Source: Conchocele bisecta
Taxonomy: Eukaryota > Mollusca > Bivalvia > Lucinida > Thyasiridae
NCBI GenBank assembly: GCA_029237695.1
Contig: CM055279.1
Span: 62,007,586-62,071,585, forward strand
Reading direction: 5' to 3'
DNA: 64,000 bases
Part shown: positions 9,223 through 33,128 of the stretch, in pieces
How positions within the stretch are numbered: the stretch's first letter is position 1
Layout: each line of letters begins with the position of its first letter
Notes under the pieces: generated by a model
Seen by the model: only the letters and a program-made list of their open reading frames with translations
Told to the model about the DNA's origin: nothing
Databases searched by the model: none
Position numbers and translations under genes: made by a program

Positions 9223-12200
9223 CTGCACGGGCACAAACACACGAGCGGTATTACAGGACAGCTGTACATAGCGAACACACGGTTAGAAGCAGAGTCTAGT
9301 TAGGGAGTTAACTTATATTTAAGTGTGAGAATTGGCTCGAAAACATTACTTGTCCAGAGATACAAGTCCAAAAATACGGCGACTTTTGGTGTGTGTGATA
9401 TATTATGAGAAATTTGTGATGGTGACGTGCGGTTAGAATTCATCCTGGAGTCAAATATATGCTAAGCTCGCCAAAATGGGGCTTATATGGATCACATTCC
9501 ATTCACTGGCAACGTCATATCATACCGTTGCTTTGGTTATTTAGACTTTCAGGAGCTTTCAGGAGCTATCAGCAAATATTTACATCTTCCATAAATTCCT
9601 ACGTAAGACAAGATTATTCTTAATTTTAACGCCATATGTGCTTATTTACATTTTTAAATCTATCTGAAAATGCAGTGTAAATATAAATACTAACACCATG
9701 GGCTGTTGCGTTTACTAGGGTGAAAATACATTTGGTATGTTTAACGTTTGCGAGGAGTCCAAAGAAGGACTCCTCGCAAACTTTAAACAGACCAAATGCA
9801 TTGTATAATCCGCTGCTTCGTTTATTGCGGTTCGCGCAAAATAAAACATTTGGGCTGCTGAAAGGGGACCGTTTCACTAAACTTCGTACGGCTAAAATGT
9901 TCGTAAGTGACACAGTATGATCATTTGTAAAGTTCATATTAACAATGTATTCTTGTCAATAATTATTTGATTTACATTTATGCGTATGAAGCCAATGTTC
10001 ATTTAATGTAAATCCATTAATTCAAATTTCCAGAGTATACTCAATTTGCACGAAGTTTAGTGAAACGACCCCCGGGCCAGACTCCAGCCACTTTAACAGA
10101 TACACGTTTAGAAAACCACAATAAACAATATAGCCAATTGTTGTGTTTGTTTAAGTGAATGACTGGGACGGACGACGTGAGGGAAAAAACACACTTACGA
10201 GCAGAAGTCACGGAAGTAGGAATCGGGTGAAAGTTTCTTGATGACCTGTTTATCCGCCAGCTGCATCATGCGGTTCTCCGTGTTCGACACGCACTGCTGC
10301 ACCTGCGCATTGGCGCCCGAGAAACACTGCAGGCCCTTGTTGTACACTGGCGAGATGGAAATAGACACCGTTAGTTACGCAAATGATAGACACCGGCTAG
10401 CGACGCACGTGAGCGACCGGTAATTACGGGAAGTAGCTCTGCCAAGCTCCTGTATAGGAGGTGCGCAGAGTTTTCTGCCCGTAACTAAGAAACCGACCAG
10501 TTACGTAGATGACACAAATGATACATGTAATAGCTGTCTGATGACAGACATTGGCAGGAACAGTACATGTGTGTACAGAACATGCACGGCTACTGTCTGT
10601 TTCACGAAAGCTGCCCAAATTTTACGGCTATATAAACAATTCAAAAACAAGATTTCTTTTCATAATATTAGATTAAAGGAAAATTTAAGAATGAGCCTTT
10701 TTTTTATTTCGTGAAATTTGGTCAAATATTGATTTTATTGCGAAAAAACAATTTCCCCATGTTAAATACCCCATAGACATCTTCACGGAGTGAAGATGTC
10801 TATGGGGATTTAACATGGGCAAATTGTTTTGAATTTTAGAAATACTGGACCGATTTTTAAAATTTAACTTTTGTGTTCTTAGTTAGATCATATCCAAGCT
10901 ATCTAGTCAGGTTTCGGAGTCAATTTCCAAATTTTTTCGTTTTTTGACTCCTCCCACTTCCGTACCACTTTTTCTCCCATGTTAAATTCCCATAGACAAA
11001 TCAATTTTTCGTAATAAAATCAATATTTGACCGAATTTCACGAAATAAAAAGAAGGCTCATTCTTAAATTTTCCTTTAATTCAATATTATCGAAAATAAT
11101 ATTGTTTTTAAATTGTCTATATAGCCGTAAAATTTGGGCAGCTTTCGTGAAACAGACTATAGTCACATATAGGACGCCCAAAGCTAATTACGTATAGGCC
11201 AGCCAGTGGATAGTTAATAGTACATGTACAGTCAGCCAATACACTGGCGGGTGTTTCATTGATAGAATGGCGAACAGTGCAGATCCTGATCAGACTGTGC
11301 GGATGCACAGTCTGATCTGGATCTACACTGGTCGCAAACCACATAAGCCCCATTTCTGCAGTCACAGCCACATGTATAGAGAAAACCAACTCACGTGGAA
11401 GGTCGGCACAGATGACCTCGATGGCGTTCTCCAGCGACGACTGCTGGTGACCCCAGAAAGCCAAGATGTCCTTGGCAGCGGGACACGACGCGAACGTCTT
11501 CTCCATGCACTGGAATATCTTGAATCGGTCCCTGTAATAACGCCATTGATTCATGTTGCTGTGATATGTACATGGGCCACACCACCAACATGCATAGTAG
11601 TTATGAGTACATAACTCTAATTACATTCCATTACACAGCATTACATAACAGTTATTGCGGAGTAGTCTTTCCAAATGTGCGTTTGAAGCGTTCTTTGTTT
11701 ACTTTCAACTTTGTGGAGAGTGACCTAAGAATGTTGGTAATACACACTCTATTAGGTAAGTTTATGGAAATTAGATCGGCAACATTATTTGCTACAAGCA
11801 ATCAGCAACACTGACGGCAGATGTATCCCTCAACAATACATGTAGTATCGTAAGCTTTTAAGCCATTAAAGGTACACGTCCACTCAGTAGGCACATAATG
11901 TTCTTTATATCAGATACATCATCGGAGACATTTTCTGGCAAAATAAACATTCATTCACCATTACCTCACGTATGTATTGGCATTATTATACATCAGACAT
12001 AAATTCCCACACTGATATCAGGGACCATAACCGTGTTTCTTTAAAATGTTAACGGACATTATTATTTATTCTCTGTATTTATATTTTGATGTGAATTGAT
12101 CATACTTTATAATCTGTAGAAAATATTATGTTTTCATGTGACGCGTTTAATTAGTATAAATAATTAAAATAATATCATGCCTCATTTGCATATGAAAATA

Positions 12201-15200
12201 CCCTTATACCACCGCGCGTCACTAGCAGTAAAATAAATATTACTAAATAATTATATCTGTATAGCGGGCACTCGTAATTTTTAGAACTGGTGGAATAGTG
12301 ACACAATTATATACTTATTTAATTCCTATAAAGACTACTGAGTGGGCATGAACCTTTAAGCAAGGGGCCGCATGGGTGGGCTATAGAATATGGCTATATA
12401 TTGGTGATGACACATACAGTATATTAAGTTTCAAGCCAGTTCGATTTAGAGTAAAAGAGATATGCAAATCTCGGAGAGACCGACGAACAGACGGACAAAC
12501 GAACAGTTCGCAGGTAGGCAACTATATGTACGTATATTGGTTTGTGTCCGGGGTCTGTCTCAGGTTGGAGGAAAACTCATGTAGGTATTCCAGTACATGT
12601 TACAAAGCAAATGGCATTGAGAAATGCTTATCTAGACCAATACGAATAACTTATTACTTATATCAATTTTTGCCTAGAAATTGCCTGTATTTGCCTACAG
12701 CAATAACATACACAGTTCAGGCTGATACGGCGTGTTTTACAGTCTGATACTGAAACTTCTAGTCTGATACTGCCATTTCTAGTCTGATACCATCGTTACT
12801 AGTCTGATACCGCCGTTTCCAGTCCGATACCATGTCTCGCGCGCGTATTAAACCAGTTCCTTTGGGCATGCGCATTACGTATGTTTACTTTATCGGCTGC
12901 GTAAGTTTTGACAGATGCCGGGAATTTAAATTTGTAGGCTCTGTATTTCATCATTCAATCATGGATAACGGTATAGATTTTAATATATGATTATCACAAC
13001 AGCCGGATGATTGATATTGAAATTGATATCTAAGTAAGCTAAGTAATACAGATGTTAATACGTGTCTTGTTTGATATCGGCCTAGGTATCGTCCCTCGGT
13101 AACTTGGTATCAGCCTTCGACCTTCGGTCTCAGGCTGATACCAAGTTACCTCGGGCCGATACCTAGGCCGATATCAAACAAGCCACGTATTAACCTCTAA
13201 GTATATACTGCAAACAATAGCAAAATATGCCACCCGTAATTCATTAATAACCCACATTCTAACCACATCCTAACTAAGTTTAATTGACTAAGTTATAATT
13301 ACTTTCAATGTTTCTGATAAATAGACTACCATACATGTGTCTTTCGCTACCAAGTGTATCTGTCTCGGCCTCGGAAACGGTAGGAATCCTCGGCGAGCCT
13401 CGGAATTCCTACCATGTCCTAGCCTCGGCCTGGTATTGTCGGCCACGAACCTGCAGACGGAGCTGGCGGAGTCGCTGTCGCCGAGGAAATTACGGCGGTC
13501 GTGGGTGATGTTCACGAGGAACATGTCCGCCGCGAGCCCGAACTTCTGGAAGCAATTGTTCATCGCGCCGTGGATGTTGCGCACGCACGCCGGCTGCTCG
13601 TGTCGGCGGATGGTTGTGTTCGTGTCCGGAATAAACAGCTCTGTAATGGACAGTGTGGGGTGTTGTCAGCTGTGGCCGGGCATCGACAATGGGGGTGTGG
13701 CCAAGATCGTGACATGTTATTGTGAAATACTCGGCCACTAATCCACGGGGTTGATTCAACTACTAGTATGTACCATTATAGCCTGTTCTCTCGGGTACTA
13801 CACAGTGTATGCAACTATTGTGACGACAAGGCAAATCACTGAAGACTGGTGTAATCCGGTATTTACTAGTGAGATACAATACTTTTGATATAATTATATA
13901 GCCGCCGGCTGGCGTAGCTGGTGAGTGTACCAAGTGCTCGCTAACCGCTATGCACTCAATAGAGCTTGGTAAAGCGTCGGACCCACGCTGGGTCGAATTG
14001 TGGACGCTATCTGGCAGTCTGGGCATATGCAGCCTATGCTCAATACATCTAAATCCAATAATTGTTTACAAGAAAACAGTGTTAATTTGTGAAATTTACA
14101 GACGATCTTAAGTTTGCACTTACGAACATTTTAGTCGTACTAAGTTTAGTGAAACGGGCCCCTGATAACCCTAAAATCTGGTTGTCATCATAGGACGATT
14201 TACATAAGTCTCTCTGCGTTACAAACTGAAACTTCGGGTTAGTGTCCTGGAAGATAGTCGGTAGATTGTCGCCATACCTGTGTTCGGGCAGATGGCGTCG
14301 ATGTTGTCCTTGTGCGACTTGTAGCAGCGGGACGGGATGAGCTGACACTCGAACTGGTTCTTCAGGTCGATGGCCGGCTTGCCGCACGTCGGCCACGAGG
14401 AGCCGTCACACTGCACGTGGTTCACCCGCGCCCTGACACGGAACATGCATTTATCAGGTACATGCATCTTACTACGCCATTAAAGATACCATACGTTTTT
14501 GAAAATATCAAAACTGCAAAGTAAAACTAAATAATACAACTATCCGCTCTTGTGTTAATCGCCGTTTTCAAAACATTAAGTCTATTTAAAGCACAGATAT
14601 TAAAAACTAGATCGCCAGTTGATATTTGTATGGCACCTGTGGTTTAACGCGAGTGTAAACCACGTAAGACCAATATAACTGCGACAGTGGATGGTATTAC
14701 ATGAATTCCTTAACATAGAGAGCAACAAGACACATTGAACAAAGGAAAAACATCAACACATGTAACTAAGTTAAGCAATACACCATGATAACTACATGAT
14801 AACTACATGGCACTTAGGTGAGAGACTCACGTGCAAAAGTCTGAGAAGAACGAGTCCATGGAGAGTTTCTGTGTGATCTGTTTGGTGGAGAGGTCCGTGA
14901 TGGCCACCGTCATGTCCTCCATGCACTGTCGGGCGCCATCTGTCGGCTGGGCGAAACACGCCAGGCCCGCCAGGTAGTCTGTATACACGGAATATCTTGT
15001 TATTAACCCAATGATGACCGGATACAATTATAATAACGTAGACGGGAAATTTGAAGATTATTTCTCGCTATTTTCGCTATTTCTGTTCGAAAGCATATGT
15101 TGTTACCACTCATATGAACCGTCTCGACGAGACGGTTCAAATGAGTGGTAACAATATATACTTTTATGGAGAAATACACAAAATAATAAGTACGAGACAG

Positions 15201-18200
15201 TTTGGCACTTTTCTAAACGGAAACTTTCTTTCTTGAACTCGGTCCTTAATTGCATCCGTCCCTGGCGGACTCGTTGCAAGTGTGACTCGTTGATACGTAT
15301 TTCAGACACAAACGGGCAACCTACCACTTATGAGACTGGCCTGTCATGTGATAACCTGTAGCCTATTTCACCAACATTGCAAAGTATACTTATCTAGCAA
15401 AGTATACTTTGATGGAGAAATTTTCAATTTAAGGATACATTTATTAATTTTTATTATACTGAATTTATTACATTATCAAAGCCAAAATTAATAATTATGC
15501 ATACGTTTAATCATCTATATATGCAGTCGTTAGTTCTATATGACTGACATAATGCATTTCAGGAAATATATTGACTCCCTCAAAGTATACTTTGCATTAG
15601 AAAAGAAGTATAGTTTGCAATGAAATCGGCTAATGGATATAGTTTATGAGTCTCGTCTTGGAAACGGTCGAAGTTCCTCGACAACCTTTTTAATACATTT
15701 GCAATCCCATTTAGAGAAGTAAATGCAAAGGCATTATCTGATGAACTTGGAATTGGAAACGGTTCGAATTCCTCGACAACCTTTTGAATTCCTTTACAAT
15801 CCCATATAGAGAAGTAAACTTCAAATGCATTATCTGGTGAACTTTTGAATTGGAAACGGTAGGAATTCCTCGACAACCTTTTTGATTTCCTTTGCTATCG
15901 CATACAGAGAAGTAAACATCAAATGTATTATCTGGTGAACTTGGAATTGGAAACGGTAGAAATTCCTCGACAACCTTTTGAATACCTTTGCAATCCCATA
16001 TAGAGAAGTAAATGCATTATCTGGTGAACTTGGAATTGGAAACGGTAGGAATTTACATAGCAATTTCATGTAAATTTGAGAAGACTTAGTCTAGTATTTA
16101 CCTGGAACGTCGTGACAGAGGATACCGACGGCCCGCTCCATGCCGTGCAGGTCGAAGCCCGTGAGCGAGAGGGTCTGCTCGGCGCCCGGACATTTGTGGA
16201 TCACCTCCTGCATACAGGTAAACAGGTCGTGCTTCTTCCTGCAAACACACGCCACACCATTTGAAACAAAATCACTCTTATGCCTTCTCATGCTTTATAA
16301 AAATAAAACACCTTACGTTCCTTATACAAATAAAACACCTTAAGTTCTTAAGTAAAACACCATGCCATTTCGAAGAGCTCGAAAATAAGACAACCCCCAC
16401 ATTGCGAACGGTAACTCTTGCAATTACTCCCGTACCGTCCGTAGCTACGGACGGTACGGGAGTAGATTGCAAGAGTTACCTTCGCAACTAGACAACCCCC
16501 CTGTTCCCCAAATGCTTGATCCGCCCCTGGTTACCGATATCTTACTTGCAATGGCACAGAACATCATTACGTTTAAGGTAGTAAGTACAGCGGAACCTCT
16601 CTAAAGCGGACGCTAAGAACATATGTTGTGATCACAGTTTGACGAGTTTCTTGTATGCATGTTCATGATTGCTGCAAAAGTCATAAGTATATTCCAGAAT
16701 GATCATATGCCTGATTGACAGTGGAACATCTCTAAACCGGTCACCCTGGGGGTCACCCCAGGGTGTCCGGTTTAGGGAGGTTTCACTGTACCAGTATACT
16801 GGCACCGATTAAGTACTCATACACGTAAATAATGCAAGGGAGAACCGACTCGAGTAACATGAACCATTGAAACATGTACAGCCGAGCCTCACTAAACCGA
16901 AAACAGATGAATGTTAGTTTTGCTCAATTATTATCGGGTTCATTGCCACTTATCTCCTATTATAATGTATATTCATGATCACAAAGTAAACACGCGTGTC
17001 ATGATGTAGTCTGTTTTACAGTGGAACCTCTGTAACTGGACACCCTGGACCATCTCTAAACCGGTCACCCTGGGGGCCATCCCAGGGTGTCCGGTTAAGA
17101 GAGGTTATACTGTAGTATTTTCGTACGTTGTAGTGAGAGTGATTATTAGATACACGTCTTAACCTTTACAATGCTGAATTAACTTTCGTCGTCTGCTGGT
17201 TACTTTTTTATTCCATTTTTAGCAACACAATATAGTTTGGTATGACTTTAGAAATGATTCTAAAGCGCTGCCAAACCATTTTGTTTTGGAGAAAGATGAC
17301 AAGAATATGAAACATCAGACAACAATTGTTTTCCCACATTCTAAGGGTTAACTGATGGGAATAGTTAAAACCACACCAGGTTGCGCTACTTACGAGCAGG
17401 GTAACTAGGTGGCGTTACTTACGAGAAGTAATTAGGTGGCGCTACTTATGAGCAGGGTAACTACAATGTAGGTGGCGCTACTTACGAGCAGTAGACCTGC
17501 GCCTCCTGTGTGGTGGCGCCGATGAGGGCCCCGCGGTGCTGCGTGTCGTTGCTCATGTAGATGGCCGGATCGAGCCCCACCTTGGGGAAACACGTGCCGA
17601 ACTGCTTCTGTAGGGTGAGCAGGCAGGCGCCCGGCAGTGCTGCAACACAGGTATCGGGTATGCATAACACTTCCTAATACACATAGTATTTACTGATATA
17701 ATGTGGTTGCATTTATTAAAATAGTTTAGCGGATTCATAATGTTGTGATATTTTCCATTTAAACACTATTCCTTTTAACCAGTAATTAAATGATAGTAAT
17801 GTCTCTAAATTAATTTCGAATAGCCATGACGCAGTTGCTAAAATCACTCAAGCACATATAAGCACATATATACACGCATATAAGAGTAAAGTTAAACATG
17901 TGTTTTCACATGATACTAATCATTGGAATCCATAGAAAACATTAGTCATCTGAGGCCCGTTTCACTAAACTTCGTACGACTAAAATGTTCGTAAGTGCAA
18001 AAATATGATAGTCTGTAAATTTCACATTAACAACGTTTTCTTGTAAACAGTTATTGGATTTACATTTATTGAGCATAGGCTGCATATGCAGCCTATGCTC
18101 AATAAATGTAAATTCATCAATTGAATTTTCCAGACGATCCTAGATGTGCACTTAGTAACATTTTAGTTTTACAAAGTTTAGTGAAACGGGCCCCTGCACT

Positions 18201-21200: not shown

Positions 21201-24200
21201 GCCTGATTTACAGTGAAACCTATCTAAACCGGACACCCTGGGAGGTCCCCAGGGTGTCCGGTGTAGAGAGGTTTCACTGTATATAGTATTAGTATAAGAG
21301 AACCCGGTATATATAGATATGGCGAAAGTTATAAAAGAGAAAAACAATTTCAGTCCGTGTCTGGGACAACCTGCCTTATCGCTATAGATTGTAAATACTC
21401 TCTACGAGATTAACATCGACAATAGGAAACAAAGTGCTATTTTTATATCCACAAAGGAGGCATTAATAAGGCATAATTAATGGAGGCCGAGATAAGGCAG
21501 GCCGGCCAGGCAGTGGGCCGATGAAATTGGCTTCACTTTTGTCGCCGCAGTACGTGGCCACGGTGATGAGCACGTTGGCGAAGCTCGCCTCCACCTGCAG
21601 CAGCTGCATGCGCACACAGCCCGACCCGAGCAGAGCGCCCTTGCCGCATTGCTCCAGCTCCTTCCAGCGCCTGCAGTGAACAAACACACGGGTTACAGCC
21701 CGCCACAGCACGGGGACCGTCCGCCAGAGGGCCTACTTACTCGTGTCTCCGCAGAACGTGGCCGTGGTGATCATCATGTTGGCGAAGGCGGCCTCGATGG
21801 ACAGCATCTGGCCACCGGAACACCCCGCACTAGTTAACACATTCTTTCCGCAGTGTTCGAGAGGTTTTAATTGCCTAATGAATAATAGAATACATACATG
21901 TATGGTTAGTACGGTGATTTATTTCATTGCTGAGGACTGTGCACACCTGTGTGAATATCATCGCCAGTACACAAGTAATATTAAATGACAGGAAGTAAAT
22001 CGAAGAGAAATAAAGAAAGAAGGAACATTATCAAAGATAACAAGGAGCCGATATTGATTATTGCATACGTCCTGTAATGCAGGCCTGTACGCAGAGGGGG
22101 TGCGACGGGTGCGTACGCACCCCCCCCCCCCTTAACCCTTTCACGTTTAACCCGCAGGCATGTATAGTGGCATTGGTAAACAGTGTAGATGCAGATGAGC
22201 CGGCTCGTAACGAGACGTCTCATCAGGATCTGCACTTTTTGCAATTAATTTTCATAATTTTGAGAACAAAAACACACTCCATGTTCATAAATGGACTGGT
22301 CTGAAAATCATTTTGTGATGATTTAGATTGGTTGCAAAATTAACAAATCAAAATCCATTTCATTTACTTATGGATGAAAGGGTTAATCTACCGAGGTCTG
22401 TCCGTGGATGTGCAAAAACAATGTTTAACCCTTCGCGCCGTCGATAGCGCACCCCCCCTAAAATAATTCCTGCGTACGGGCCTGTAATGTATACATTTGT
22501 ATCATAAAACTACTCCCCACCAGTAGCCTATTTCACCAACATGGCAAAGTATACTTATCTAGCAAAGTATACTTTGAGGGAGAAATTTCAATTTAAGGAT
22601 AAATTTATTATTTTTTTATTATTATCTGAATTTATTACATTATCACAGCCATTTTGGCTGTGATAATGTAATACATTCAGTATAATAATTCTGCATACTT
22701 ATAATCATCAAATATATGCAGTCGTTAGTTCTATATGAAATAATGCATTTCGGGAAAAATAAATGATTACTCCCTGAAATTATACTTTGCTAGATAAGTA
22801 TACTTTGCAATTTTGATGAAATCGGCTACAGCTGTATTAGACAAAACACGAATGAAATGTGTATGTCTTCAATACGGATAAACAACACACACATTATAAT
22901 ATGTGTTGCACGTGCAACGATATATATTGAGACATATATGTATGACATGTGTATGTAAATAAACATATGTACATGTGCACTGAAATCATGAGCGCATTAA
23001 AACTGTGCAATCAACCTGATCTCTTGGCGACAAGGCGTGCGAATACGCCGTGAAATTACTTACCCACAGATGGTTTTCTTGATGGTGGCGGCGTTGGCGC
23101 CCTGAGGCAGCGTCTGATTGTTGAGCACCATCAGGATCATCTTCATATCCATGTTCAGCACCTTCTGAGCGCACGTGTTCATGCCAGTCTCGAACTTGCC
23201 CATACACTGGTTGGGGTTTACAGATTTTCCCGTGCCTACCGAGAAAGCGAGGTATTATTGTTTGGCATGGTGGGAACTAAGAGTATCATCCATCAAATGC
23301 CTTGGTGTGGGACAAGGATATTCTATCCGAGTGTCAGAATATGTCATCAGCCTCGTTTCTGACAATATATTCTCACACTCGGGTGGAATACCCTTGTCCC
23401 ATACCAGTGCGTATGATGGATACAATTAATCGCCAATTATACGGATAACTAAAAGGAAATTGGCGACCGAGAAATATATAGAGAATAGTAGGTTAGTGCC
23501 GTGAATGGGAAAAAATATCTGGCAAGACTCAGGAAACGGGATGGGCGAGGCTCTGCCGAGCACATCCCGTTTCTGTGCCGCGCCAGATATTTTTTCCCAT
23601 TCACGGCACTAACCTACTATTCTATTTATCCCGTCAACACCTACAAATGGCTGTAAAATGCAAAAATAGTATTGACTGGATATCAAAAATGTTTCACGGC
23701 ACCGTGTTTCACGGCACATAGGCACTGTGTTGACGGGATAAACATATTTATCCCGTCAACACAGTGCGTATGTGTCGTGAAATATTTGTTCCCATTCACG
23801 GCACTAACCTACTATTCTATTTATCCAGTCAACATTACAAATAGCTTTAAAATACAAAAAATAACCCCAGCCGTATCTCCAAATCGTATTGACAGGATAT
23901 CAAAAAATTGCACGGCACCGTGTTTCACGGCACATACGCACTGTGTTGACGGGATAAAGTGCATAGACCGTCTATATTTACTGTATGGTGGTGGCCTATA
24001 CTATGTGTGTAACTGTATTTAATATACAGAACTAAGTGCGTGGAATATAGAGGAAAACCAGGATAGGACGGACGTACATGTATCAGGTAACGAGCTTTGT
24101 ATTGGCCGAATACGTACTGTCTAATAACATAATGTCGCATCAGGAATTTACCGGATACGAATATTCGGGTTACAACGATTTAGCAACTGAAGTTTCATTG

Positions 24201-27200
24201 CTCGAACGGCGTCATATGACGTTACCGAATGGAGTCAGTGTAATGAATCAATGGAAACACGTCTGCATTCTTTTATTTCAACGAAACTACTTTATCGTTT
24301 ACAATCGGCTGGCATAAAATGTTATCTGGTAAATAGAATATCAGCCTACTGGCTGTTGATATCAGGTTTATCAGGCTCGGCTCAGAAACCATAGAATTTC
24401 CTACGCGTGTCTCGGTATTCCTACGAGTTTCCTCGTATTGCCTGGTAAACTGGATATCAAAAGACACGAATGTACATCGACATGTTTTTAGTAGACTGGT
24501 ATTCTCTATGTATCAGAAGGAAGCGATATGTAGCGATAATGGCACGCCCCGTCGCTGAACCACGTGTACTTACAGACGCCCTCGTACGCCCCGAGCATGT
24601 TCTGGAGCGTCGTGCCCACCATGATCGTCTGCTGCGTCTGGCACTCCTTCTGCAGTTTCGTCACCAGGGTCGTTGAGCAGCTCATCAGGCTCTGCTTCGC
24701 CGCATCACTGCCCACAGAAAACACGGGGTAAATATCACTACGCACAGAAAACACGGGGTAAATATCACGGCGCAGAAAACACTGGGTAAATATCACTGCG
24801 CACAGAAAACATGAGGTAAATATCACTGCGCACAGAAAACACGGGGTAAATATCACTGCGCACAGAAAACACGAGGTAAATATCATTGCGCACAGAAAAC
24901 ACGGGGTAAATATCACTGCGCATGGTAAATATCACTGCGCACAGAAAACACGGGGTAAATATCACTGCGCACAGAAAACACGAGGTAAATGTGAAGATGG
25001 TTCATGGAAAGGCCTCTATGACAGGTATATATATACCATGTTTCCATAGTCATTAGACTTGTCACAAAATACCGGACCGGTAATATGAACAATGTTATAC
25101 TGATGGCATGACGACCAGACTGAAATGTTTGCTGACGGCATAGAATGAACGGTACTACTCATGATAAATGCACAGGTACCAGAAAAAAATCACCCGATTA
25201 TCTAGTTTCTAATATGAATTATACATGAAACGATAATGACATGCGATTATTTTCAGTCACCTGTGGATAAAGGTGTACTCCACAAGAACAGACAAAAAGA
25301 AGAAAAGCCCAAGACACATTATTGTCTTTGTACTAGCTGCGGGAAATCTTCCACACCGTCCGGAATTTTGAAGTTTCTGCCGGAACTATAAATTTATAAA
25401 CTATAAACGGTGCAGTGAAACCTCTCTAAACCGGACATCCCGGGAATTCCCCGGGGTGTCCGACTTAGAGACGTTTCACTGTAAATCAGACATTTGCTCA
25501 TTCTAAACCATAGTTGTGTGATATGTGACCACGAACAGACATTATCACCTGCGATAAATGACCAGGAAACTCGTCAAAAATAAGATCATATGTGCTTTCT
25601 TGGTTTCCGGTTTAGAGAGGTTCTACTGTACTACTAGTTCGTGTGTTTATTTCCCGCGGCGGTACGAACCTGCAGGCGAGCTGTTTGAGCTGGTCGCGGT
25701 TGACGTTCTGCGGCAAGGTCTGATTGGCGAGCAGCATGAAGAACTGGTCGGGCACTATCTGGGCCGACTGCAGGCACGCCCTAAAACCCTTGTCGAAGTT
25801 CTGCAGGCAGGCGGGCGGCACTGACGCTGTGAACAACATGATTAATTAACCCTTTGAAACCGGAAGCCCGCTATATCGGTTTATGCAAACAGTGCAGATC
25901 CAGATGAGCCGGCTCGTAACGAGCCGCCTCATCAGGATCTGCACTTTTTGAAAGTAAATTTCATAATTTTGAAAACAAAAAACACCCCCTTTTCATAAAT
26001 GGACTAGTCTGAAAATTAGTTTGTGACAATTGGATTGGTTGCAAAATTAACATGTCAAATCCATTCCAGTTACTTAGGGTTGAAAGGGTTAAGGAATACA
26101 ACCATGGTGTGTTGCGTTTACTGGGGGTGAATAATACATTTGGTTTCAAAAATGTAAATAACCGCATATGGCGGTAAAATTAAGAATAATCTGGTTATAC
26201 GTCATTTTGTCGCAATTTCTGGAACAGCGACGTTGCCGGTCAATAGCGTGCAGTCGTTGATGACCTCGTGGAAATTAAAGAATTCAAACGAACTTTAACC
26301 AATCAACAACATGGCGCATCGTCACGTAGGTCTAATGTATTGTACTGGGATATAAACGCAATACGTTGAGTGTGCGTTTCCATTATGAATTTATGGACAG
26401 TATGAATATTTCTCATCGCATTGTCTTTTCGAGCAAGTCCACAATGGATGACCAAATCCACACATACATGTATACATGTACAGCACAACATATGCTGCCA
26501 AAGCAAACGTTGGCCATATGTTTTCGTAACAATAAAATAAATGTGGTTCAGAACTTGCCATTTCCGGTTTCCGTTTGTAGGTTAAGCAAATAAATAAGAC
26601 TGCCTTAAATCGAAAAGACAGATATACATCTAAATTGGCGATCAAAATACATGTATATGTAGTTACAATTTGGAATCCGCCAGTTATATCAGTAACTTTT
26701 AAGAGACGTGTTTTTGTTATTTGGTGTCCATTGGTATTCATATATCATTTAAGAATCTATGATTTACCAGTGTTTACACATCATTCGAAGAATTGTAACA
26801 ATTGTAACACGTGTTCGACGTGTGTGCTTACATGGGGCGCCACTGTGTGTTACAACGGGTGCCATTGGATTTACAAGGGGCGCCACAGTGTATTTACAGG
26901 GGTGCCAGTGTGTGTTTACATGGAGAGCCACTGTGGTTTTACAGGGGGCGCCATTATGTGTTTACAGGGGCGCCAGTGTGAGTTTTCAGGGGGGTGCCAC
27001 TTACGTTTGCCACAGACGTTGCCGAGGCCGGAGACCATGGAGTTGACGGTACCAGCCATCATAGCGATGTCCGCCTGCTGGCACGACTGGACTGGGTTGT
27101 TGGGCAGCGGCCCGATACACGACTCGACGCCCTGTAGGTTCCTGTACAATTGCAATATTACAATGTACATTTATATCCAAAGGAGACAGACGATCCCACA

Positions 27201-30200
27201 CACATCAATATTTCACGTACCCGTATGCCAAGAACTGAACACAAGTATGCAAATGCGTCTACGATTAGCAAGTACATGATGCAAGATGTAACAAGGGCAC
27301 CGGAAGCGTCATAAGATTGGTCCGGCGAATCTAGTAGGTGCCCCCACTACCCCCGCTACAAAGTGTATGTTGTTACCACTCAGGTGAACCGTCTCACCGA
27401 GACGGTTCAACTGAGTGGTAACAACATACACTTCTGATGAGAAAATATTTACATTCCGTTTTTATAAATATATATAATTTATTTGAATTCCAAATATGTC
27501 AAAATTATTGATTCGGCAGTCGCCGGACCTGTTCCGCCTGTGTAACTATGTAAAGCCATATAACACAGGCACGCGTACAGTGCTAATAATCACCGAGTGC
27601 CCAACAGACATCGAGTGTAACACACATACGTGATAAACTTTACATGTATGTTCCGCCAGTATCATAGTATATATTGTGCACAGGGCTCCTGCGCAAATGT
27701 CCTACAATTCTAGCTACCGCTCAATATGTACAGCGAAGGTTCCGAAACGAAAATGACTAGAAAACTAAGTGTAGGCGAAAACAATATTTTCGTTTAAATT
27801 CACCGCTTTCAACCATTTAAAAGTCTGCCGTTTCTTTCAACGCACCGTTTTCATATCATTTTCGTTGTTTTAATTAGAAAATCATTGCCAACGAAAACAT
27901 TGTTTTCTAATTACGAAATCGAAAATGATGTCCACGGGTATAATGATAAGCAATCGTTCGTTTGGGGAACCTGGGGGCCGTTTCACTAAACGTCGTAAGA
28001 CTAAAATGTTCGTAAGTGCAAATCTAGGATCATCTGTATAGTTCAATTGATGGATTTACATTTATTGAGCATAGGCTGAATATGCAGCCTATGCTCAATA
28101 AATGTAAATCCAATAATTGTTTACACGAAACATTGCTAATGTGAAATTTACAGACAATCATAATTTTGCACTTACGAACATTTTAGTCGTACGACGTTTA
28201 GTGAAACGGGCCCCAGGAACACATCGGGAATCTGGAGCCACGATGTACGTACCCACATAGTGTGTTCTCTAAGTTTTTTCTCTGCCCAACCATTTGCTGT
28301 GGCAACGCGCCGCTCGTGCCGTTGGTAACCAGGGAGAACACAACCTCAAGTTCGAACCCGCCGGAGTCACGAAAGCACTGGCGGAAACTTCGGTCGAACA
28401 GTTGGACACATTGTGACGGACTTTGTGCGTTTGTTGAGCTTGAGTATAATAGCGCTGAAATACACGATACGTATCATAATTAATTAGCATGCCTTATATT
28501 TCAGCCAGTAGTTTATAGAGAGATAACTACTAAATTAAACCATTCGGTTCTTTAAAGGGCAACTACTATGATCGTGTTTCCAATATATGGATAAACAATC
28601 ACATATTTACTTCGACCAATAAAATCATGTTCTCGGACACAATCGCGAAACGGTTACGTTCATGCAGCCCTGTAAATATTTTTTACAAGTTACAAGGCAC
28701 GCTTCATGCCAAGTGCCATGTATTCCATGCATTTTTCGGTCGTTTTCTTATTGTTTCAAAATTTAAACGTTTTCAATCAAAATTCATGTCTAAACATACT
28801 GTGACAGTGTCACTATTTTTGCTCCAAAATGTGCCAGAACGCAGCAAATGCGATGTAGATTTGCATAGCTCGTTCGATAATATAGTCAAGTATTGCAAAA
28901 TAGTTACGCCCCCCCCCCACCCCCAACCCGAAATCCTGGATCCGCGCCTGCTTGTTTTTCATATATAGTTATACCGATGCTAGCCGAAATCATTCAAACG
29001 TTCTAAAATAGATTTACAAAGAAAATGTGTCTGTGCCTAAGCTATCTATGCTTAGAACTTGATGAAACAGGGGCTAGTTTCACTAAACTTCGTAAGACTA
29101 AAATGTTCGTATGTGCAAATTTCGGATCGTCTGTAAATTTCAATTGATTGATTTATATTTATTGAGCATATGCTGCATATGCTCAATAAATGCAAATCCA
29201 ATAATTGTTAACAAGAACGCATTGTTAATGTGAAATTTACAGACAATAATAATTTTGCACTTACGAACATTTTAGTCGTACGAAGTTTAGTGAAACGGCC
29301 ACCTGATTAGGAAAAAGAATGATTTAATTGTAGATTCTTATTGTATTTCTGAACCAAACTGTACCCGATATGTCGCCTGCAAACAAATGGTGGATTGGTA
29401 TAAATGCATTTATTTTATAATACGGAAAAATAACTAGCGTTTGCAATATCTGAGGCGCAGTACTTTTATAATTGTAAAGTGTGAATGTCGTGTTAGACAT
29501 TGCCGGAAGTCACCGAAAGAAAAAAGGACCCGGGGCTGCACTTCCGCCGTGACTCATTGTGCGGGTTAACGTGTGAGCTGCGTGTAATGTGTTCAATGGC
29601 GCCATGATGAGCCACTGTCATTTACTGTTTCTGTATTGTTTTTGCATTGTTTATATGGCCGTAAAATGTGGGCAGGCTTCGTGAAACAGACAGTAGTTTC
29701 CATTCGATATGATATTTATTAAGCGAGTCACACGCAATGTACAGTGGGGTCAGCGTGTAAGTGCACACACGAACGAACACGACAGGTTGGAACCAACCTG
29801 TCGTGTTCGTTCGTGTGTGCACTTACACGCTGACTCCACTGTGTGCACCGAGCCTCTGGCGAGGTACATACAATTGATGACGAGTTTCATTTGGAACGTC
29901 TTCGTTTTGTTCGTTTGGCACAACGTCGGCGCATAATACGAATACGTGATTAGGGTGATGCGGCCAGCCAATCAAATTCCCTGCAGATGTTATTACACGT
30001 GTGTCATATCATCATGAAATGGGTTACAGCACGTCATAATAAAGTTTTTATGTGATAAATAGTATTATAATAGTACTGTACTGGCATTATCACGAGTTGG
30101 CACGCCCCTGGGTACAATGTGTATGATCACGTGCTTAAAACAACAACAACAACAACAAGTACTGAAACTTACAGAAGCCCTCCGATTCAAAGTACGTATT

Positions 30201-33128
30201 ATTATATATTGTCCTTATTATGTAACGGATGTTGATGAAATATGGAGCATCAAACGTGTCTTGCTAAGCTGCATTTTGGTGGTCTCGGTACTTTCGCCCA
30301 AACTTCTGTCGTTTTTGCGAAGAATCGATTTCCATGTCTACGGACACGGAAATCGATTCTTCGCAAAAACGACATAAGTATATTCCGAACTCCCGGGACC
30401 ACCAATTGCAGCGTTTGCTGCTCAATATTTCATCAAAATCCGTTGCTTATTAAGGAAAATATAAAATAATACTTACTTTGGAGTGGGCGCGCTTTCAACA
30501 TGTTGTTGTTAATGTTGTAACCACGTGATGATGCACCTTGGGGCACGTCTGACTATAATTCACCAATACTGGGTTGCTGGAGAAATGGGGCTTATGGTAA
30601 TTATTACCAGTGTAGCTGCTGATCGAATAGCACACGCCGGCAGTCTGGTAACAGTCTATATTGCGTGTTAGAATCATGACGGGTGCTTCATTGGTAGAAT
30701 GGTGAACAGTGCAGATCCTGATCAGCCTGTGCGGATGCACAGGCTGATCTGGATCTACACTGGTCACAAAACCCATAAGCGGATGCACAACTCATAACAA
30801 GGGCGGACTCACGTAGGGGAAAATCCGGCGCGCGCCCGCCCTTTACATTTAGCGAGTAAAGATAGTTTTGCTCTAAAATGCGCCAAAACGCAGCAAAATG
30901 GGGTGTAGATATCAAAAATATTCCGGAGGGCGTACCGCCGGATTCCCCTAGCAGTCCTCCGAGCCCTGCTCGGTCAACGAACGATCGGTGCTAGTTCGAA
31001 AATAAATTAAACTATTTCAATTAAGAAGTCCCGCCCCCCTAACCTTAAGTTCTGGATCCGCCCCTGCATATATATAAGCCCAATTTCAGTCACAGCCACA
31101 AATGAGTTTGAACTTTAGTAGCAAAATTATTGTATCGCTTCTGTAAACAGTCAAATCTTAAAGAGTTTTTGAAACAAATACCATAAAAAATAAAAACGTG
31201 TTTTCATCATGGCCCTGTGTTAAGTACAATAATAACATATAAAATATTATAATGGCTGAAATCAACATTCGGTTTAAAGGGGGCACATCAGGATTTTATT
31301 TTTTAAAAATACTATAAAAAATAAAAACGTTTAATTGAAGATATATGACGATACTAGGACTACTGTGTGTTGTTTCTATTTTCACCGATACATAAGTATC
31401 AGATTGAACGCAACAAATTAGGAAATCCGATATTTATGTACCTATATGGGTGAAAATAGAAACAACCCAGCGGTCTAGTATCGTCAGATATCTTCAATTA
31501 AACGTTTTTATTTTTTATAGTATTTGTTTTAAAATATCCTGATATGCCCCTTTAACCCGAATGTTGATTTCAGCCATTATACTATTTTATATTTTAGTAT
31601 TGTGTGCACTTACATGTATCTGCTTATAAGCCCTATTTCTCCAGTCACAGCCACAAATTGATCATTCATCATTTCAGTAGCCTATTTCACCAACATTGCA
31701 AAGTATACTTATCTAGCAAAGTATACTTCGAGGTAGACATTTTCAATTTAAGGATAAATTTATTAATTTTTATTATACTGAATTTATTACATTATCACAG
31801 CCATTTTGGCTGTGATAATGTAATACATTCAGTATGATAATTCTGCATACTTTTAATCATCAAATATATGCAGTGGTTAGTTCTATATGAAATCATGCAT
31901 TTTGGGAAAAATAAATGATTAATCCCTCAAAGTATACTTTGCTATAGAAGTATACTTTGCAATTTTGATGAAATCGGCTACTGGACCATGTTACTTCTGT
32001 AATTCATCAAGTTATAGACGCTTTGTCTATTGTTCTACTATATACTTCTAAATATAATAACGGGCCACCCTGTGTTAAGGATTTTAACATCCATGATTTA
32101 AAGGCACATGCCCACTCAGTAGGCAGAACATGTTCTTTATATCAGAGACATCATCGGAGATATTTTCTGGCAAAATAAACATTAATTCACCATTACCCCA
32201 CGTATTGATTGGTATTATTATACATTTTATATCAGACGTAACTTTCCACACTGATATCAGGGGCGATAACCGTGTTTCCTTAACATGTTAACAGACAGTA
32301 CTAGTTATACTCTGTATTTATTTTTTGATGTGCACTTATCATACTTTATAATTTGTCGAAAATATTATTTTTTCAGGCGAAGCATTTAATTAGTATAAAT
32401 AATTAAAAAATATCATGCCTGAAAATAGCCTGATACCAACGCGCGTCACTATCAGTAAAATAAATATTACTAAATGATTATATCTGTATAGCGGCCACTC
32501 GTATTCTTTAGAACTGGTGGAATAGCGACACAATTATACACTTATTTAATTCCTATAAATAACTTTGTGTGCCTATTGCGTGGGCATGTACCTTTAAGCA
32601 ACCAAGCCCAGGCCGTTACAATCAAGCAGACCGGAAACACGTGCTTGATACCACAATTTATCCCGTCAACACAGTGCGTATGTGCCGTGTAACACGGTGC
32701 CGTGAAACATTTTTGATAACCTGTCAATACGACCTAATCACTGCGTATGAATATGTTCGGTGGCTGGCATCTTAAAGCCATTTGTAGGTGTTGGCGGAAT
32801 AAATAAAATAGTAGGTAATGCCGTGAATTCCGAAAGATATCTGGCGCGGCACGTAAACGGGATGTGCTCGGCAGAGCCTCGCCCATCCCGTTTCCTAAGC
32901 CTTGCCAGATATGTTTTCCCATTCACGGCACAAACCTACTATTCTCTATTTCTTTTTCTGGCAAACGTAGTTATATGTATGGTACATAGTGACATAGTTT
33001 CCGACATAAAAGCTATCGGAGTGTTCCTCGTCGTCGCCGCGATTGTACAGACGGGTAAACGGACACAGACAGCCATGAAATATTAAACAAGTTCGATACT
33101 TACCAAGAGATATCCCTATAATCCACAT
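8940..33128 (-). CDS. Secreted, GPI-type anchored protein of seven tandem six-cysteine modules (spliced, 15 exons per transcript, one mutually exclusive pair)
   Basis: Joining 33104-33128, 28253-28454, 27005-27141, 25670-25826, 24574-24707, 23064-23235, either 21741-21874 or 21537-21670, then 17486-17639, 16102-16238, 14831-14978, 14278-14432, 13451-13640, 11395-11531, 10199-10346 and 8940-9222 gives 2313 nt: 770 residues plus stop, no internal stop. Residues 1-18 form a signal peptide (MWIIGISLALLY, then SSSTNA). Even exons (type A) carry C-x10-C and a final Cys; odd exons (type B) carry C-x7-11-C and a final Cys, with two extra cysteines in exons 11 and 15. Residues about 749-770 are a hydrophobic tail after a Gly/Ser/Ala stretch with no cytoplasmic residues, as in GPI signals. 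The protein should sit outside the cell, disulfide-bonded and N-glycosylated. Family not recognised; the cysteine pattern loosely recalls DUF19/T20D4.11-like domains, which is only a guess. Confidence 0.85.
9223..10198. other. Intron 14 of the cysteine-module gene
   Basis: Holds a 40-bp hairpin (gtttgcgaggagtcc mirrored, about 9746-9786) and MITE-2 copy 3. No other exon seen. Confidence 0.6.
9865..10072. mobile_element. MITE-2 copy 3
   Basis: Arms gaccgtttcactaaacttcg and gaagtttagtgaaacgacc; the central palindrome is decayed. Confidence 0.75.
10199..10346 (-). CDS. Exon 14 (type A)
   Basis: Phase 1 to 2, 148 nt, acceptor tcgccag, donor GTAAGT. It encodes GLQC-x10-C, then DKQVIKKLSPDSYFRDFC. 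Counterpart of exon 10. Confidence 0.86.
10590..11158. mobile_element. MITE-7 copy 1
   Basis: About 570 bp. Terminal repeats tctgtttcacgaaagctgcc and complement enclose a second pair (gaatgagcctttttttt / aaggctcattcttaaa) and an inner hairpin at 10785-10815 (agacatcttcacggag). Confidence 0.8.
11255..11375. repeat. cagatcctgatcag hairpin family, well-preserved copy
   Basis: gaacagtgcagatcctgatc, cagactgtgcggatg, cacagtctgatctgg, atctacactggtcgcaaa, then ccccatttctgcagtcacag. Confidence 0.75.
11395..11531 (-). CDS. Exon 13 (type B)
   Basis: Phase 2 to 1, 137 nt, acceptor tattacag, donor GTGAGT. It encodes FQC-x7-C, a Trp-containing stretch (ILAFWGHQQSS) and VICADLP. Counterpart of exon 9. Confidence 0.85.
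11868..12359. mobile_element. MITE-5 copy 2, uninterrupted
   Basis: aaaggtacacgtccactcag to gagtgggcatgaaccttt; about 490 bp with no insertion, so it shows the family's native length. Confidence 0.8.
12735..12830. repeat. Minisatellite, about 21 bp, five units
   Basis: Units read agtctgatactgccatttct with single-base variants (taccatcgtta, taccgccgtttcc). Confidence 0.8.
13056..13190. repeat. Palindrome of about 130 bp
   Basis: cttgtttgatatcggcctag, gtatcgtccctcggtaactt and ggtatcagcc are mirrored by complements around cttcgaccttcggtctc. Confidence 0.85.
13451..13640 (-). CDS. Exon 12 (type A), first exon of the second block copy
   Basis: Phase 1 to 2, 190 nt, acceptor cattacag. It starts with a linker (ELFIPDTNTTIRRHEQ), then PAC-x10-C, an NIT sequon and SVC. 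It is the longest internal type A exon after exon 2. The donor is GTTCGT after TGCAG, as in exon 4. Confidence 0.85.
13908..14012 (+). repeat. Possible tRNA-derived SINE head
   Basis: tggcgtagctggt fits a Pol III A box, and about 65 bp further on gggtcgaattgtg resembles a B box. No cloverleaf was folded and no second copy was found, so this is tentative. Confidence 0.25.
14021..14162. mobile_element. MITE-2 half copy
   Basis: Starts at the centre (gcatatgcagcctatgctca) and runs to gtgaaacgggcccc; the left half is missing. Confidence 0.75.
14278..14432 (-). CDS. Exon 11 (type B, five cysteines)
   Basis: Phase 2 to 1, 155 nt, acceptor gtgtcag, donor GTATGG. It encodes VQCDGSSWPTC, NQFEC, PSRC and DAIC. 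Two cysteines beyond the type B norm are shared only with exon 15 (LHCDLTGWTSAC, TEFEC, QEHC, MTSC), so the five-Cys form arose once and was copied. Confidence 0.85.
14831..14978 (-). CDS. Exon 10 (type A)
   Basis: Phase 1 to 2, 148 nt, acceptor tatacag, donor GTGAGT. It encodes GLAC-x10-C, STKQITQKLSMDSFFSDFC. Exon 14 has the same length and a parallel ending (DKQVIKKLSPDSYFRDFC). No sequon here, unlike most other type A exons. Confidence 0.86.
15085..15170. repeat. gaaccgtctcg hairpin element, copy 3
   Basis: catatgttgttaccactcat / atgagtggtaacaatatata around gaaccgtctcgacgagacgg. Confidence 0.8.
15358..15633. mobile_element. MITE-1 copy 2, central palindrome damaged
   Basis: Left end and body intact; one arm of the central hairpin after attatcaaagccaaaatta is lost; the right end reads tttgcaatgaaatcggcta. 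Confidence 0.75.
15655..16060. repeat. Tandem repeat, period about 90-97 bp, five units
   Basis: Each unit has ggaattggaaacggtagg, aattcctcgacaacctttt, caatcccatatagagaagta and gcattatctggtgaac. It ends 40 bp before the donor of exon 9. Confidence 0.85.
16102..16238 (-). CDS. Exon 9 (type B)
   Basis: Phase 2 to 1, 137 nt, acceptor tttgcag, donor GTAAAT. It encodes LFTC-x7-C-PGAEQTL and GILCHDVP. The short C-x7-C spacing, the length and the acidic ending match exon 13 (FQC-x7-C-PAAKDIL, VICADLP), pointing to shared descent. Confidence 0.85.
16394..16490. repeat. Palindrome of about 90 bp
   Basis: gcgaacggtaactcttgcaa and tactcccgtaccgtccgtag are mirrored by complements around gtagctac. Confidence 0.85.
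16580..16796. mobile_element. MITE-4, long form, copy 1
   Basis: Opens agcggaacctctctaaagcg; middle has gtttcttg, gttcatgattg and gaatgatcatatgcctgatt; closes with the cggtcaccctggggg hairpin and gtttcactgta. Confidence 0.7.
17021..17115. mobile_element. MITE-4 hairpin, copy 3
   Basis: agtggaacctctgtaactgg, then caccctgggggccatccca and ggttaagagaggttatactg. Confidence 0.7.
17159..17350. mobile_element. MITE-11 copy 1 (TTAA ends)
   Basis: ttaacctttacaatgctgaa to ttctaagggttaa, with tcgtctgctgg near the left end and the tttagaaatgattctaaa hairpin in the centre. TTAA ends suggest piggyBac-type mobilisation. Confidence 0.7.
17382..17491 (-). repeat. Minisatellite of exon 8 splice-donor copies
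   Basis: In the minus sense, CTGCTCGTAAGTAGCGC at the real exon border is followed by three more copies within 95 bp. Their donors fall at 17388-17393 (GTAAGT), 17417-17422 (GTAAGT) and 17444-17449 (ATAAGT, lost). Flanks (gccacctaattac) are shared. Confidence 0.8.
17486..17639 (-). CDS. Exon 8 (type A), first exon of the duplicated four-exon block
   Basis: Phase 1 to 2, 154 nt, acceptor gtgttgcag, donor GTAAGT. It encodes PGAC-x10-C, an NDT sequon at the place equivalent to NQT in exons 4 and 6, and VYC. Copies of its donor with flanks follow in the intron at 17382-17470. Confidence 0.85.
17953..18193. mobile_element. MITE-2 copy 4, complete
   Basis: ggcccgtttcactaaacttc to agtgaaacgggcccc; central hairpin perfect over about 29 bp each side of gcatatgc. 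Confidence 0.85.
18342..19087. mobile_element. MITE-5 copy 3, split by a MITE-1
   Basis: aaaggtacatgcccactcag to ctgagtgggcatgtaccttt; MITE-1 inserted about 70 bp from the left end, in sequence that reads straight through in other copies (attatc / ctggaaaaataaac). Confidence 0.85.
18411..18710. mobile_element. MITE-1 copy 3, nested in MITE-5
   Basis: 300 bp, both terminal repeats and the central palindrome intact. Confidence 0.88.
19374..19638. mobile_element. MITE-3 copy 2, inverted order
   Basis: The agtaggttagtgccgtgaat hairpin comes first and the cccgtcaacacctacaaatg hairpin second, the reverse complement of copy 1. Confidence 0.82.
19650..19960. mobile_element. MITE-3 copy 3
   Basis: Immediately follows copy 2 in opposite orientation, so the two form a larger inverted pair. 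It contains the longer first hairpin variant (cctaatcactgcgtatgaat). Confidence 0.82.
20242..20512. mobile_element. MITE-3 copy 4
   Basis: tatcccgtcaacacagtgcg, gttgatgggataaa, then the second hairpin with an acatg insertion in its left arm (atacatgtagtaagttagtg). Confidence 0.8.
20705..21012. mobile_element. MITE-1 copy 4
   Basis: 308 bp; the central hairpin is shortened to ttataacagccatttaatgg; ends intact. Confidence 0.85.
21070..21285. mobile_element. MITE-4, long form, copy 2
   Basis: actctctaaaccggacaaga, tcatttatctcaggtgataa, tggctcagaatgatcaaatg, then the ccctgggaggtccccaggg hairpin. Confidence 0.75.
21537..21670 (-). CDS. Exon 7b (type B), downstream member of a mutually exclusive pair
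   Basis: 134 nt, phase 2 to 1, acceptor cactgcag, donor GTGAAG. It encodes LEQCGK, C-x9-C, EASFANVLITVATYCGD, with the same cysteine spacing as 7a. Splicing 7a to 7b shifts the frame and reaches a stop at 17553-17555 in exon 8; either exon alone keeps it open. Confidence 0.85.
21671..21740 (-). promoter_or_regulatory. 70-bp intron between exons 7a and 7b
   Basis: Starts GTAAGTAGGC and ends cactgcag. It must hold donor, branch point and acceptor in 70 bp. It is far shorter than every other intron of the gene, which run from several hundred bases to several kilobases, and may be too short to splice well. Confidence 0.6.
21741..21874 (-). CDS. Exon 7a (type B), upstream member of a mutually exclusive pair
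   Basis: 134 nt, phase 2 to 1, acceptor attcattag, donor GTAAGT. It encodes LEHCGK, C-x9-C, EAAFANMMITTATFCGD. It aligns residue for residue, without gaps, with exon 7b. Its donor lies only 70 bp before the 7b exon start. Confidence 0.85.
22133..22384. mobile_element. MITE-10 copy 1 (TTAA ends)
   Basis: ttaaccctttcacg to gatgaaagggttaa, about 250 bp. Inside is a hairpin gatgcagatgagccggctcg / gagacgtctcatcaggatct and the stretch gattggttgcaaaattaac. Confidence 0.82.
22523..22829. mobile_element. MITE-1 copy 5
   Basis: 307 bp; the left end has an acatggcaaag variant; the right end uses the atcggctac form. Confidence 0.85.
23064..23235 (-). CDS. Exon 6 (type A)
   Basis: Phase 1 to 2, 172 nt, acceptor ctcggtag, donor GTAAGT. 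It encodes NQC-x10-C, a Met-rich stretch (VLNMDMKMILMVL), NNQTLPQ and KTIC. It ends in TGTGG, so either exon 7 version can restore frame with its first G. Confidence 0.86.
23295..23420. repeat. Imperfect palindrome of about 120 bp
   Basis: tatcatccatcaaatgcctt, gggacaaggatattctatcc and cgagtgtcagaatat pair with complements around gtcatcagcctcgtt. Confidence 0.75.
23478..23744. mobile_element. MITE-3 copy 5, inverted order
   Basis: gagaatagtaggttagtgcc to gtgttgacgggataaa; almost identical to copy 2, including ggctgtaaaatgcaaaaata. Confidence 0.83.
23746..23960. mobile_element. MITE-3 fragments, rearranged
   Basis: tttatcccgtcaacacagtg, a stray tgttcccattcacggcac arm, then a complete first hairpin in reverse (tatttatccagtcaacatta to gttgacgggataaa). 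Confidence 0.7.
24574..24707 (-). CDS. Exon 5 (type B)
   Basis: Phase 2 to 1, 134 nt. It encodes LMSC-x11-C, a Gln/Thr-rich stretch (QTQQTIMVGTTLQNML) and GV, with the final Cys codon split across the junction with exon 6. The acceptor (ctgtgggcag) is the last unit of a 30-bp minisatellite that fills the intron end. Confidence 0.85.
24708..24995 (-). repeat. 30-bp minisatellite carrying the exon 5 splice acceptor, about nine units
   Basis: Plus-strand unit cagaaaacacggggtaaa plus tatcactgcgca. In the minus sense every unit supplies a pyrimidine-rich acceptor, tgttttctgtgcgcag; the unit touching exon 5 (ctgtgggcag) is the one used. The third unit from the exon is 28 bp, and another unit is cut short near 24921. 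Confidence 0.85.
25410..25635. mobile_element. MITE-4, long form, copy 3
   Basis: The cagtgaaacctctctaaacc hairpin (25410-25485), then catttgctcattctaaacca, acaaacattatcacc-like body, and ccggtttagagaggttctac at the far end. Confidence 0.75.
25670..25826 (-). CDS. Exon 4 (type A)
   Basis: Phase 1 to 2, 157 nt, acceptor ttcacag. It encodes PPAC-x10-C, the sequon-bearing ANQTLPQ and a closing QLAC, closely matching exon 6. The donor is the unusual GTTCGT directly after TGCAG, shared only with exon 12. Confidence 0.85.
25848..26093. mobile_element. MITE-10 copy 2
   Basis: ttaaccctttgaaaccggaa to ttgaaagggttaa; inner hairpin gagccggctcgtaacgagcc. Confidence 0.82.
26815..27004 (-). repeat. Minisatellite starting at the exon 3 splice donor
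   Basis: Minus-sense units of about 26-28 bp, TGGCGCCCCTGTAAACACA with variants, seven or so copies beginning inside the donor GTAAGTGGCACCCC. The intron stays in frame for about 30 codons before a stop. Confidence 0.75.
27005..27141 (-). CDS. Exon 3 (type B)
   Basis: Phase 2 to 1, 137 nt, acceptor ttgtacag, donor GTAAGT. It encodes ESC-x11-C, then a Met/Ala-rich helix-like stretch (DIAMMAGTVNSMVSGL) and NVC. A minisatellite starts immediately after the donor. The same 137-nt length recurs in type B exons 9 and 13. Confidence 0.85.
27358..27440. repeat. gaaccgtctcg hairpin element, copy 4
   Basis: gtatgttgttaccactcagg and cctgagtggtaacaacatac-like arms around gaaccgtctcaccgagacgg. Confidence 0.8.
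27973..28213. mobile_element. MITE-2 copy 5, complete
   Basis: Ends 40 bp before the exon 2 donor (28252), the closest MITE to an exon of this gene. Confidence 0.85.
28253..28454 (-). CDS. Exon 2 (type A): rest of signal peptide and first half-module
   Basis: The acceptor (tttcag) opens at phase 1 and the donor GTACGT closes at phase 2; 202 nt. It completes the signal peptide (cleavage likely after SSSTNA) and encodes C-x10-C (VQLFDRSFRQ between the cysteines), an NGT sequon followed by ALPQ, and a closing NTLC. Its ALPQ parallels the TLPQ of exons 4 and 6. Confidence 0.82.
29070..29301. mobile_element. MITE-2 copy 6
   Basis: gggctagtttcactaaactt to gtttagtgaaacggcc; the central palindrome is shortened at atgctgcatatgctcaataa. 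Confidence 0.8.
29635..29702. mobile_element. MITE-7 end fragment
   Basis: attgtttatatggccgtaaa, tgtgggcaggcttcgtgaaa, cagacagtag; no opposite end nearby. Confidence 0.65.
29740..29846. repeat. Nearly perfect 106-bp palindrome
   Basis: cagtggggtcagcgtgtaag, tgcacacacgaacgaacacg and acaggttgg are mirrored with one visible mismatch (ggggt/actcc) around ggttggaaccaacc. Confidence 0.9.
30113..30539. mobile_element. MITE-6 copy 1
   Basis: Ends gtatgatcacgtg ... and aaccacgtgatgatgcacct, a (caa)n tract inside the left end and its complement in the right, a central palindrome cgtttttgcgaagaatcgat; about 425 bp. Confidence 0.8.
30570..30790. repeat. cagatcctgatcag hairpin family, two-part copy
   Basis: ggagaaatggggcttatgg near the left; the core gtgcagatcctgatcagcct / ggctgatctggatctacact at 30707-30760 is a 24-bp-stem hairpin around gtgcggatgcac. 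Confidence 0.75.
31250..31585. mobile_element. Inverted-repeat element, about 330 bp, single copy here
   Basis: tataatggctgaaatcaaca and ttgatttcagccattata at the ends, then aaagggggcacatcagg/cctgatatgcccctttaa, aaaacgtttaattgaagata and tattttcaccgata pairs. A clean MITE architecture not matching the other families. Confidence 0.75.
31677..31981. mobile_element. MITE-1 copy 6
   Basis: 305 bp, intact; adjoins agccctatttctccagtcac, the tail of the cagatcctgatcag family. Confidence 0.85.
32098..32596. mobile_element. MITE-5 copy 4
   Basis: aaggcacatgcccactcagt to tgcgtgggcatgtaccttt; about 500 bp, no insertion. Confidence 0.82.
32657..32948. mobile_element. MITE-3 copy 6
   Basis: ttatcccgtcaacacagtgc, ggtgttggcggaataaataa (mutated), then the second hairpin ending actattctct. 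It ends about 150 bp downstream of the exon 1 donor. Confidence 0.8.
33104..33128 (-). CDS. Exon 1: start codon and half of the signal peptide
   Basis: ATG at 33126-33128 encodes MWIIGISL and one extra G, followed by the donor GTAAGT. The G joins CG from exon 2 to make Ala, and the hydrophobic core then continues as ALLY. This start is preferred because it gives a textbook signal peptide only after splicing. The following intron is about 4.6 kb. Confidence 0.72.

Follow-up and report, generated by a model that had tools for sequence, protein, structure and literature searches.

Mutually exclusive exons with a short distance between donor and branch point are known from alpha-tropomyosin. More generally, exclusive splicing of tandem duplicated exons is well known, and such exons are often ancient (PMC9741552; PMC3228551). 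The pair 7a/7b of the bivalve Conchocele bisecta described here is both a new and an old example of them; a literature search over titles and abstract openings found no published description of this gene or of its exon pair. PMC7434440 describes exons 6a and 6e of nematode coq-2 and comparable pairs from annelids and molluscs. Like 7a and 7b, these are adjoining homologous exons of equal length, which is 134 nt also in C. elegans, and one exon is taken per transcript there, whereas exclusive use is a prediction for the present locus. However, coq-2 encodes an enzyme for which that account gives RNA-seq proof and a known substrate switch, while 7a/7b belongs to a predicted surface protein and was recognised from its sequence. 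In oyster, likewise a bivalve, exon 10 of the alternative oxidase gene (PMC5589949) is duplicated in tandem and is reported to be used alternatively. This is, however, the final exon of the gene, so that there is no downstream frame to meet, and the expression and stress response were measured there. Exons 4a and 4b of OGDH, as presented in PMC7969005, resemble our pair in the short donor-to-branch-point distance of the intervening intron, with the difference that the branch points of OGDH were mapped and that of 7a/7b is predicted.

The window, i.e., the whole stretch of 64,000 nucleotides analysed here, contains a minus strand gene (33128-8940) with 15 exons per transcript, and joining these exons at their splice borders gives a protein of 770 residues that is built of alternating A and B half-modules with three cysteines each. 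Exon 1 (33104..33128; this and all following exons on the minus strand) holds the start codon and the beginning of a predicted signal-peptide-like stretch. It is followed by exons 2 (28253..28454, type A), 3 (27005..27141, type B), 4 (25670..25826, type A), 5 (24574..24707, type B) and 6 (23064..23235), the last being the type A half of the third six-cysteine module, which consists of exons 6 and 7. Exon 7 is present in two versions, 7a (21741..21874, a-type) and 7b (21537..21670, b-type). Exons 8 (17486..17639), 9 (16102..16238), 10 (14831..14978), 11 (14278..14432), 12 (13451..13640), 13 (11395..11531) and 14 (10199..10346) lead to the last coding exon, 15 (8940..9222), with a predicted hydrophobic GPI-signal-like end and the stop codon. 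As read from the sequence, the start of the protein is hydrophobic and its end consists of small residues followed by a hydrophobic stretch, which suggests a secreted and GPI-anchored, hence a predicted surface, protein. Neither Pfam and PDB searches with the window protein nor a comparison of the family profile with PDB gave a solid match. DUF1397 (PF07165) was not matched by the window protein at E up to 1, and was matched at that threshold by four of the 14 relatives introduced below (best 7.6e-5). Two shorter paralogous genes are present in the same genome (C15:61966798-61985619 and C15:15710020-15720003; L018-L026, L029, L030), one of them about 22 kb beyond the low end of the window. Their recognisable pieces are E2-, E8-, E9-, E10- and E15-like, and a scan of the strand of these matches gave nothing related to exon 7 with an E-value below 0.71.

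Both versions of exon 7 are 134 nt long, enter in phase 2 and leave in phase 1, and are separated by an intron of 70 nt (21671..21740, minus strand, GT..AG). Of the 44 aligned residues, 23 (52%) are the same in both peptides, and the three cysteines align (positions 8, 18 and 41). The sequence-only reading had noted these lengths, phases and spacing, as well as the matching cysteines and the identity of about half of the residues, and its coordinates and arithmetic were confirmed. In tblastn searches of the window with composition correction off, the 7b isoform matched 7a (E 4e-10) and the 7a isoform matched 7b (E 4e-11); judged from these matches, the similarity is more than chance. No third copy of exon 7 was detected in the window when an exon-7 profile, which itself included 7a and 7b, was run on six-frame ORFs of at least 15 aa (next E 0.48). 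Since 7a and 7b are only 61% identical in DNA, an assembly artefact or a recent duplicate is ruled out, and a DNA search of the whole 1.89 Gb genome, in which the best candidates were scored, found 7a once.

When only 7a or only 7b is included, the result in each case is an uninterrupted protein of 770 aa, as expected from the earlier claim that either exon fits exons 6 and 8. When the two are joined, the frame meets a stop in exon 8 (TGA 17555-17553) with seven junctions still 3' of it, and when both are left out it meets a stop in exon 11 (TGA 14408-14406); both failures had been foreseen in the same reading, the second as a broken frame. Retention of the 70-nt intron would give 338 nt and keep the frame by length, but a TAG lies just inside the intron. 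The two related neighbours are in frame only singly, and it is very probable that the animal splices one or the other and in this way exchanges one cysteine-rich half-module. Mutually exclusive splicing of a duplicated pair, swapping half of the third module as first proposed, is supported by the frame arithmetic together with the single a-type or b-type exons of the relatives. Under this explanation both isoforms would be made by this animal, transcripts with both exons or neither would be destroyed by nonsense-mediated decay, and the swap would alter what the third module binds.

The 14 related proteins comprise ten named bivalve proteins (Ruditapes, Mactra, Dreissena, Potamilus, Sinanodonta and Tegillarca) and four contigs, and all 14 have exactly one exon 7. 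It should be considered that the protein database was clustered at 90% identity and that each record displays one exon-7 kind. In the tree calculated without exon 7, the window protein was placed within the heterodont set (89/91), branching outside the other eight members (81/89), which points to a heterodont bivalve as the host. The two kinds are best seen in a conflict between exon 7 and the rest of the protein. Outside exon 7, P0005 shares 85% of its residues with P0004 of Mactra antiquata, and within it 61%; these two had been paired by their identities outside the exon, and the tree made without exon 7 confirmed the pairing. Between P0005 and P0006 the identity is 61% outside the exon and 80% within it. 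Among 737 sliding windows of 46 columns, P0005 was nearer to P0006 by 0.18 in the one starting at residue 278, which is the exact exon border, while all those starting outside P0005 residues 241-329 had P0005 nearer to P0004 (best -0.03), as did the mean over all 737 (-0.21). With exon 7 left out, a grouping of P0005 and P0006 was rejected (AU p 7e-23), and with exon 7 alone a grouping of P0004 and P0005 was rejected (AU p 0.015; mixture model p 0.0015). This conflict indicates that exon 7 is of one kind (a) in P0005 and P0006 and of the other (b) in P0004. Contigs P0001, P0003, P0005 and P0006 measure 2.4-4.0 kb and are likely cDNA because the entire coding sequence lies within each of them; in these other bivalves, P0005 and P0006 are a-type and P0001 and P0003 are b-type. 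A second search gave 12 matches with exon-sized reading frames, of which four cover exon 7, five exon 6 and three exon 8, and among the exon-7 frames P0015, P0019 and P0021 are a-type and P0023 is b-type. A protein search restricted to the b-type exon 7 returned no matches. The comparison with related species that had been recommended for the pair hence yielded a single exon 7 in each protein, of either the a-type or the b-type. The record of P0002 carries the name 'isoform X2', and the freshwater mussel proteins P0007 and P0008, with 995 and 996 aa, apparently have additional N-terminal copies of the first module, as judged by eye.

The distinction between the two kinds was also recovered in trees of exon 7 itself (20 peptides, 44 columns), for which the a and b labels of the relatives and of window 7a and 7b had been assigned before the first tree but after viewing the sequences. 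An a set of six rows, including window 7a, was separated from a b set of eight rows, including window 7b, with a support of 89/93 and in 98% of 200 bootstrap trees; the split was retained under the mixture model (92/91; 95% of bootstrap trees) and with heterodonts only (95/93; 97%). Profiles built without the tested row placed 7a towards a by 7.6 bits and 7b towards b by 8.0 bits, and put all 12 labelled relatives on their own side. A sister relationship of 7a and 7b was not rejected under the simpler model (p 0.088) and was rejected under the mixture model (p 0.028). Because window 7a groups with the a kind and 7b with the b kind, the pair predates the heterodont bivalves sampled. The five freshwater mussel rows lean towards b, by 1.1 to 10.2 bits, and a lean of 10.0 bits towards a was seen in the ark clam, and a tree uniting all heterodont exons without the freshwater mussels was rejected (p 0.032, from 44 columns with long branches), which is a hint that the duplication could be older than the split between heterodonts and freshwater mussels. 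New here is the finding that all of the related proteins have a single exon 7 of one of two kinds, from which the pair appears to be old.

Three means of keeping the exons apart can be proposed. The likeliest is their incompatible phase, which would turn the double, skipped or retained form into one with an early stop and which would in principle suffice for exclusivity. By the general rule of nonsense-mediated decay, an early stop with junctions downstream leads to removal of the transcript, and with seven junctions behind the stop in exon 8 the rule predicts removal of the joined form. In this genome the 70-nt intron might in addition hinder splicing of 7a to 7b, and factors of some kind could act on the two weak outer splice sites. 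The other 14 introns of the gene are much longer, at 398 to 4649 nt. In the 70-nt intron the best branch-point-like adenine is predicted 47-48 nt from the donor, slightly short of the donor-to-branch-point threshold of about 50 nt given in PMC7969005. As this adenine is 22 nt from the acceptor, the case is one of a short intron and not of a distant branch point. Human clusters with a distance below 50 (9%) and with lengths not divisible by three (60%) are given in PMC5740500, so that, according to these figures, both kinds of enforcement were already known.

The relatives separate the two ideas to some extent. The a-type exons of two relatives are longer by 2 and 4 codons, and since these changes are whole codons the exon phase is preserved. 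However, no b-type exon at such spacing was found 3' of the a-type exons of P0015 and P0021 when three frames were read, over 99 and 39 codons past the exon, respectively (P0019 was too short to judge). P0015 rules out a b-type exon starting within about 200 nt and P0021 was judged by the early motif CGK; window 7b was detected as a control. In these two the spacing must therefore be longer, the order different, or the b-type exon absent, which would count against the short intron as the ancestral means of enforcement. The steric block by a short intron, as invoked in the sequence-only reading, hence appears possible in this genome from the position of the branch-point-like adenine, but it is not borne out by P0015 and P0021. 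The comparison is useful in this respect, as phase is apparently kept in the relatives and the 70-nt spacing is not. Pairing sequences in introns 6 and 7 had also been suggested as a check. The duplex of the intervening intron with intron 6 was matched by 40 of 60 shuffles, and that with intron 7 was slightly better than the shuffles, 4 of 60 reaching it; docking-site pairing of the Dscam type is thus not convincing. Folds over the exon pair were no stronger than those of shuffles (z about +1).

The scores of the splice sites (matrix of 13 sites) bear on the rival explanations. The inward-facing sites are strong, with 7.9 for the 7a donor and 8.7 for the 7b acceptor, the top of 15, and the outer ones are weak, with -4.5 for the 7a acceptor and -0.5 for the 7b donor, each the lowest of 15 in the gene. 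From this arrangement, joining of 7a to 7b would be the default unless blocked, and the use of either exon may depend on a helper factor, or unproductive splicing of the pair may additionally reduce the protein level. It could even be supposed that the pair is mainly an off-switch, in which default joining yields an unproductive transcript and less protein while one exon is truly coding. The joined form, with its stop in exon 8 and the junctions behind it, would suit such a role. We consider this extremely unlikely, as distinct peptides of both the a-type and the b-type have been retained, each in several lineages, for which a pure off-switch has no need, and an intron of 70 nt is perhaps too short for good splicing. 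Joining by itself would not favour the off-switch either, given that PMC5740500, as far as its counting is described, includes frame-incompatible clusters with joining reads among the exclusive ones.

The weak outer sites would also fit if only one member were functional here and the other an unspliced remnant of an old pair, of which different lineages had lost different members. Among the records found for the relatives, each showing one kind, there is no case of both kinds in one genome, and the GC3 of 7a (0.70) is below that of 12 of the 15 other exons; both facts would agree with a remnant. On the other hand, both exons are open, with three cysteines and with borders and phases intact, and the profiles from relatives score them about equally (85.8 bits for 7a and 84.4 for 7b). 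Between 7a and 7b, dN is 0.43 and dS 1.30, giving a dN/dS of 0.33, and the end branch of 7a (0.25) is close to the value for the rest of the window protein (0.27) while that of 7b reaches 0.43, so that 7a is ordinary, resembling the rest of the protein in its evolution, and 7b somewhat fast. On these measures neither 7a nor 7b looks decayed, and a remnant is very unlikely.

Exclusive use of two coding exons, as preferred here, amounts to a concrete isoform switch proposed in an uncharacterised bivalve protein family, and since the protein records show one kind each, ordinary annotation conceals the pair. A more far-reaching version, which is put forward tentatively and is rather doubtful as a whole, would be a two-state surface switch that predates the split between heterodonts and freshwater mussels, in which bivalves would exchange one half-module of a GPI-anchored cysteine-rich protein by exclusive splicing to present two recognition faces at the cell surface, and which would be held in the whole group by phase and not by intron size or RNA pairing.

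Repeats were also observed within the gene. In intron 4 (24704-24990, minus strand), a minisatellite with units of about 30 bp terminates in the acceptor of exon 5, and its units bear the ..GCAG|TGAT.. border of that acceptor. This results in six decoy acceptors further upstream (88 to 257 nt), none of which is in frame. A palindromic MITE-like element, identified by eye, has copies at about 22835-22520, 21012-20710, 18705-18410, 31990-31690, 15640-15360 and 8760-8460, three of which sit in the introns flanking the 7a/7b pair.
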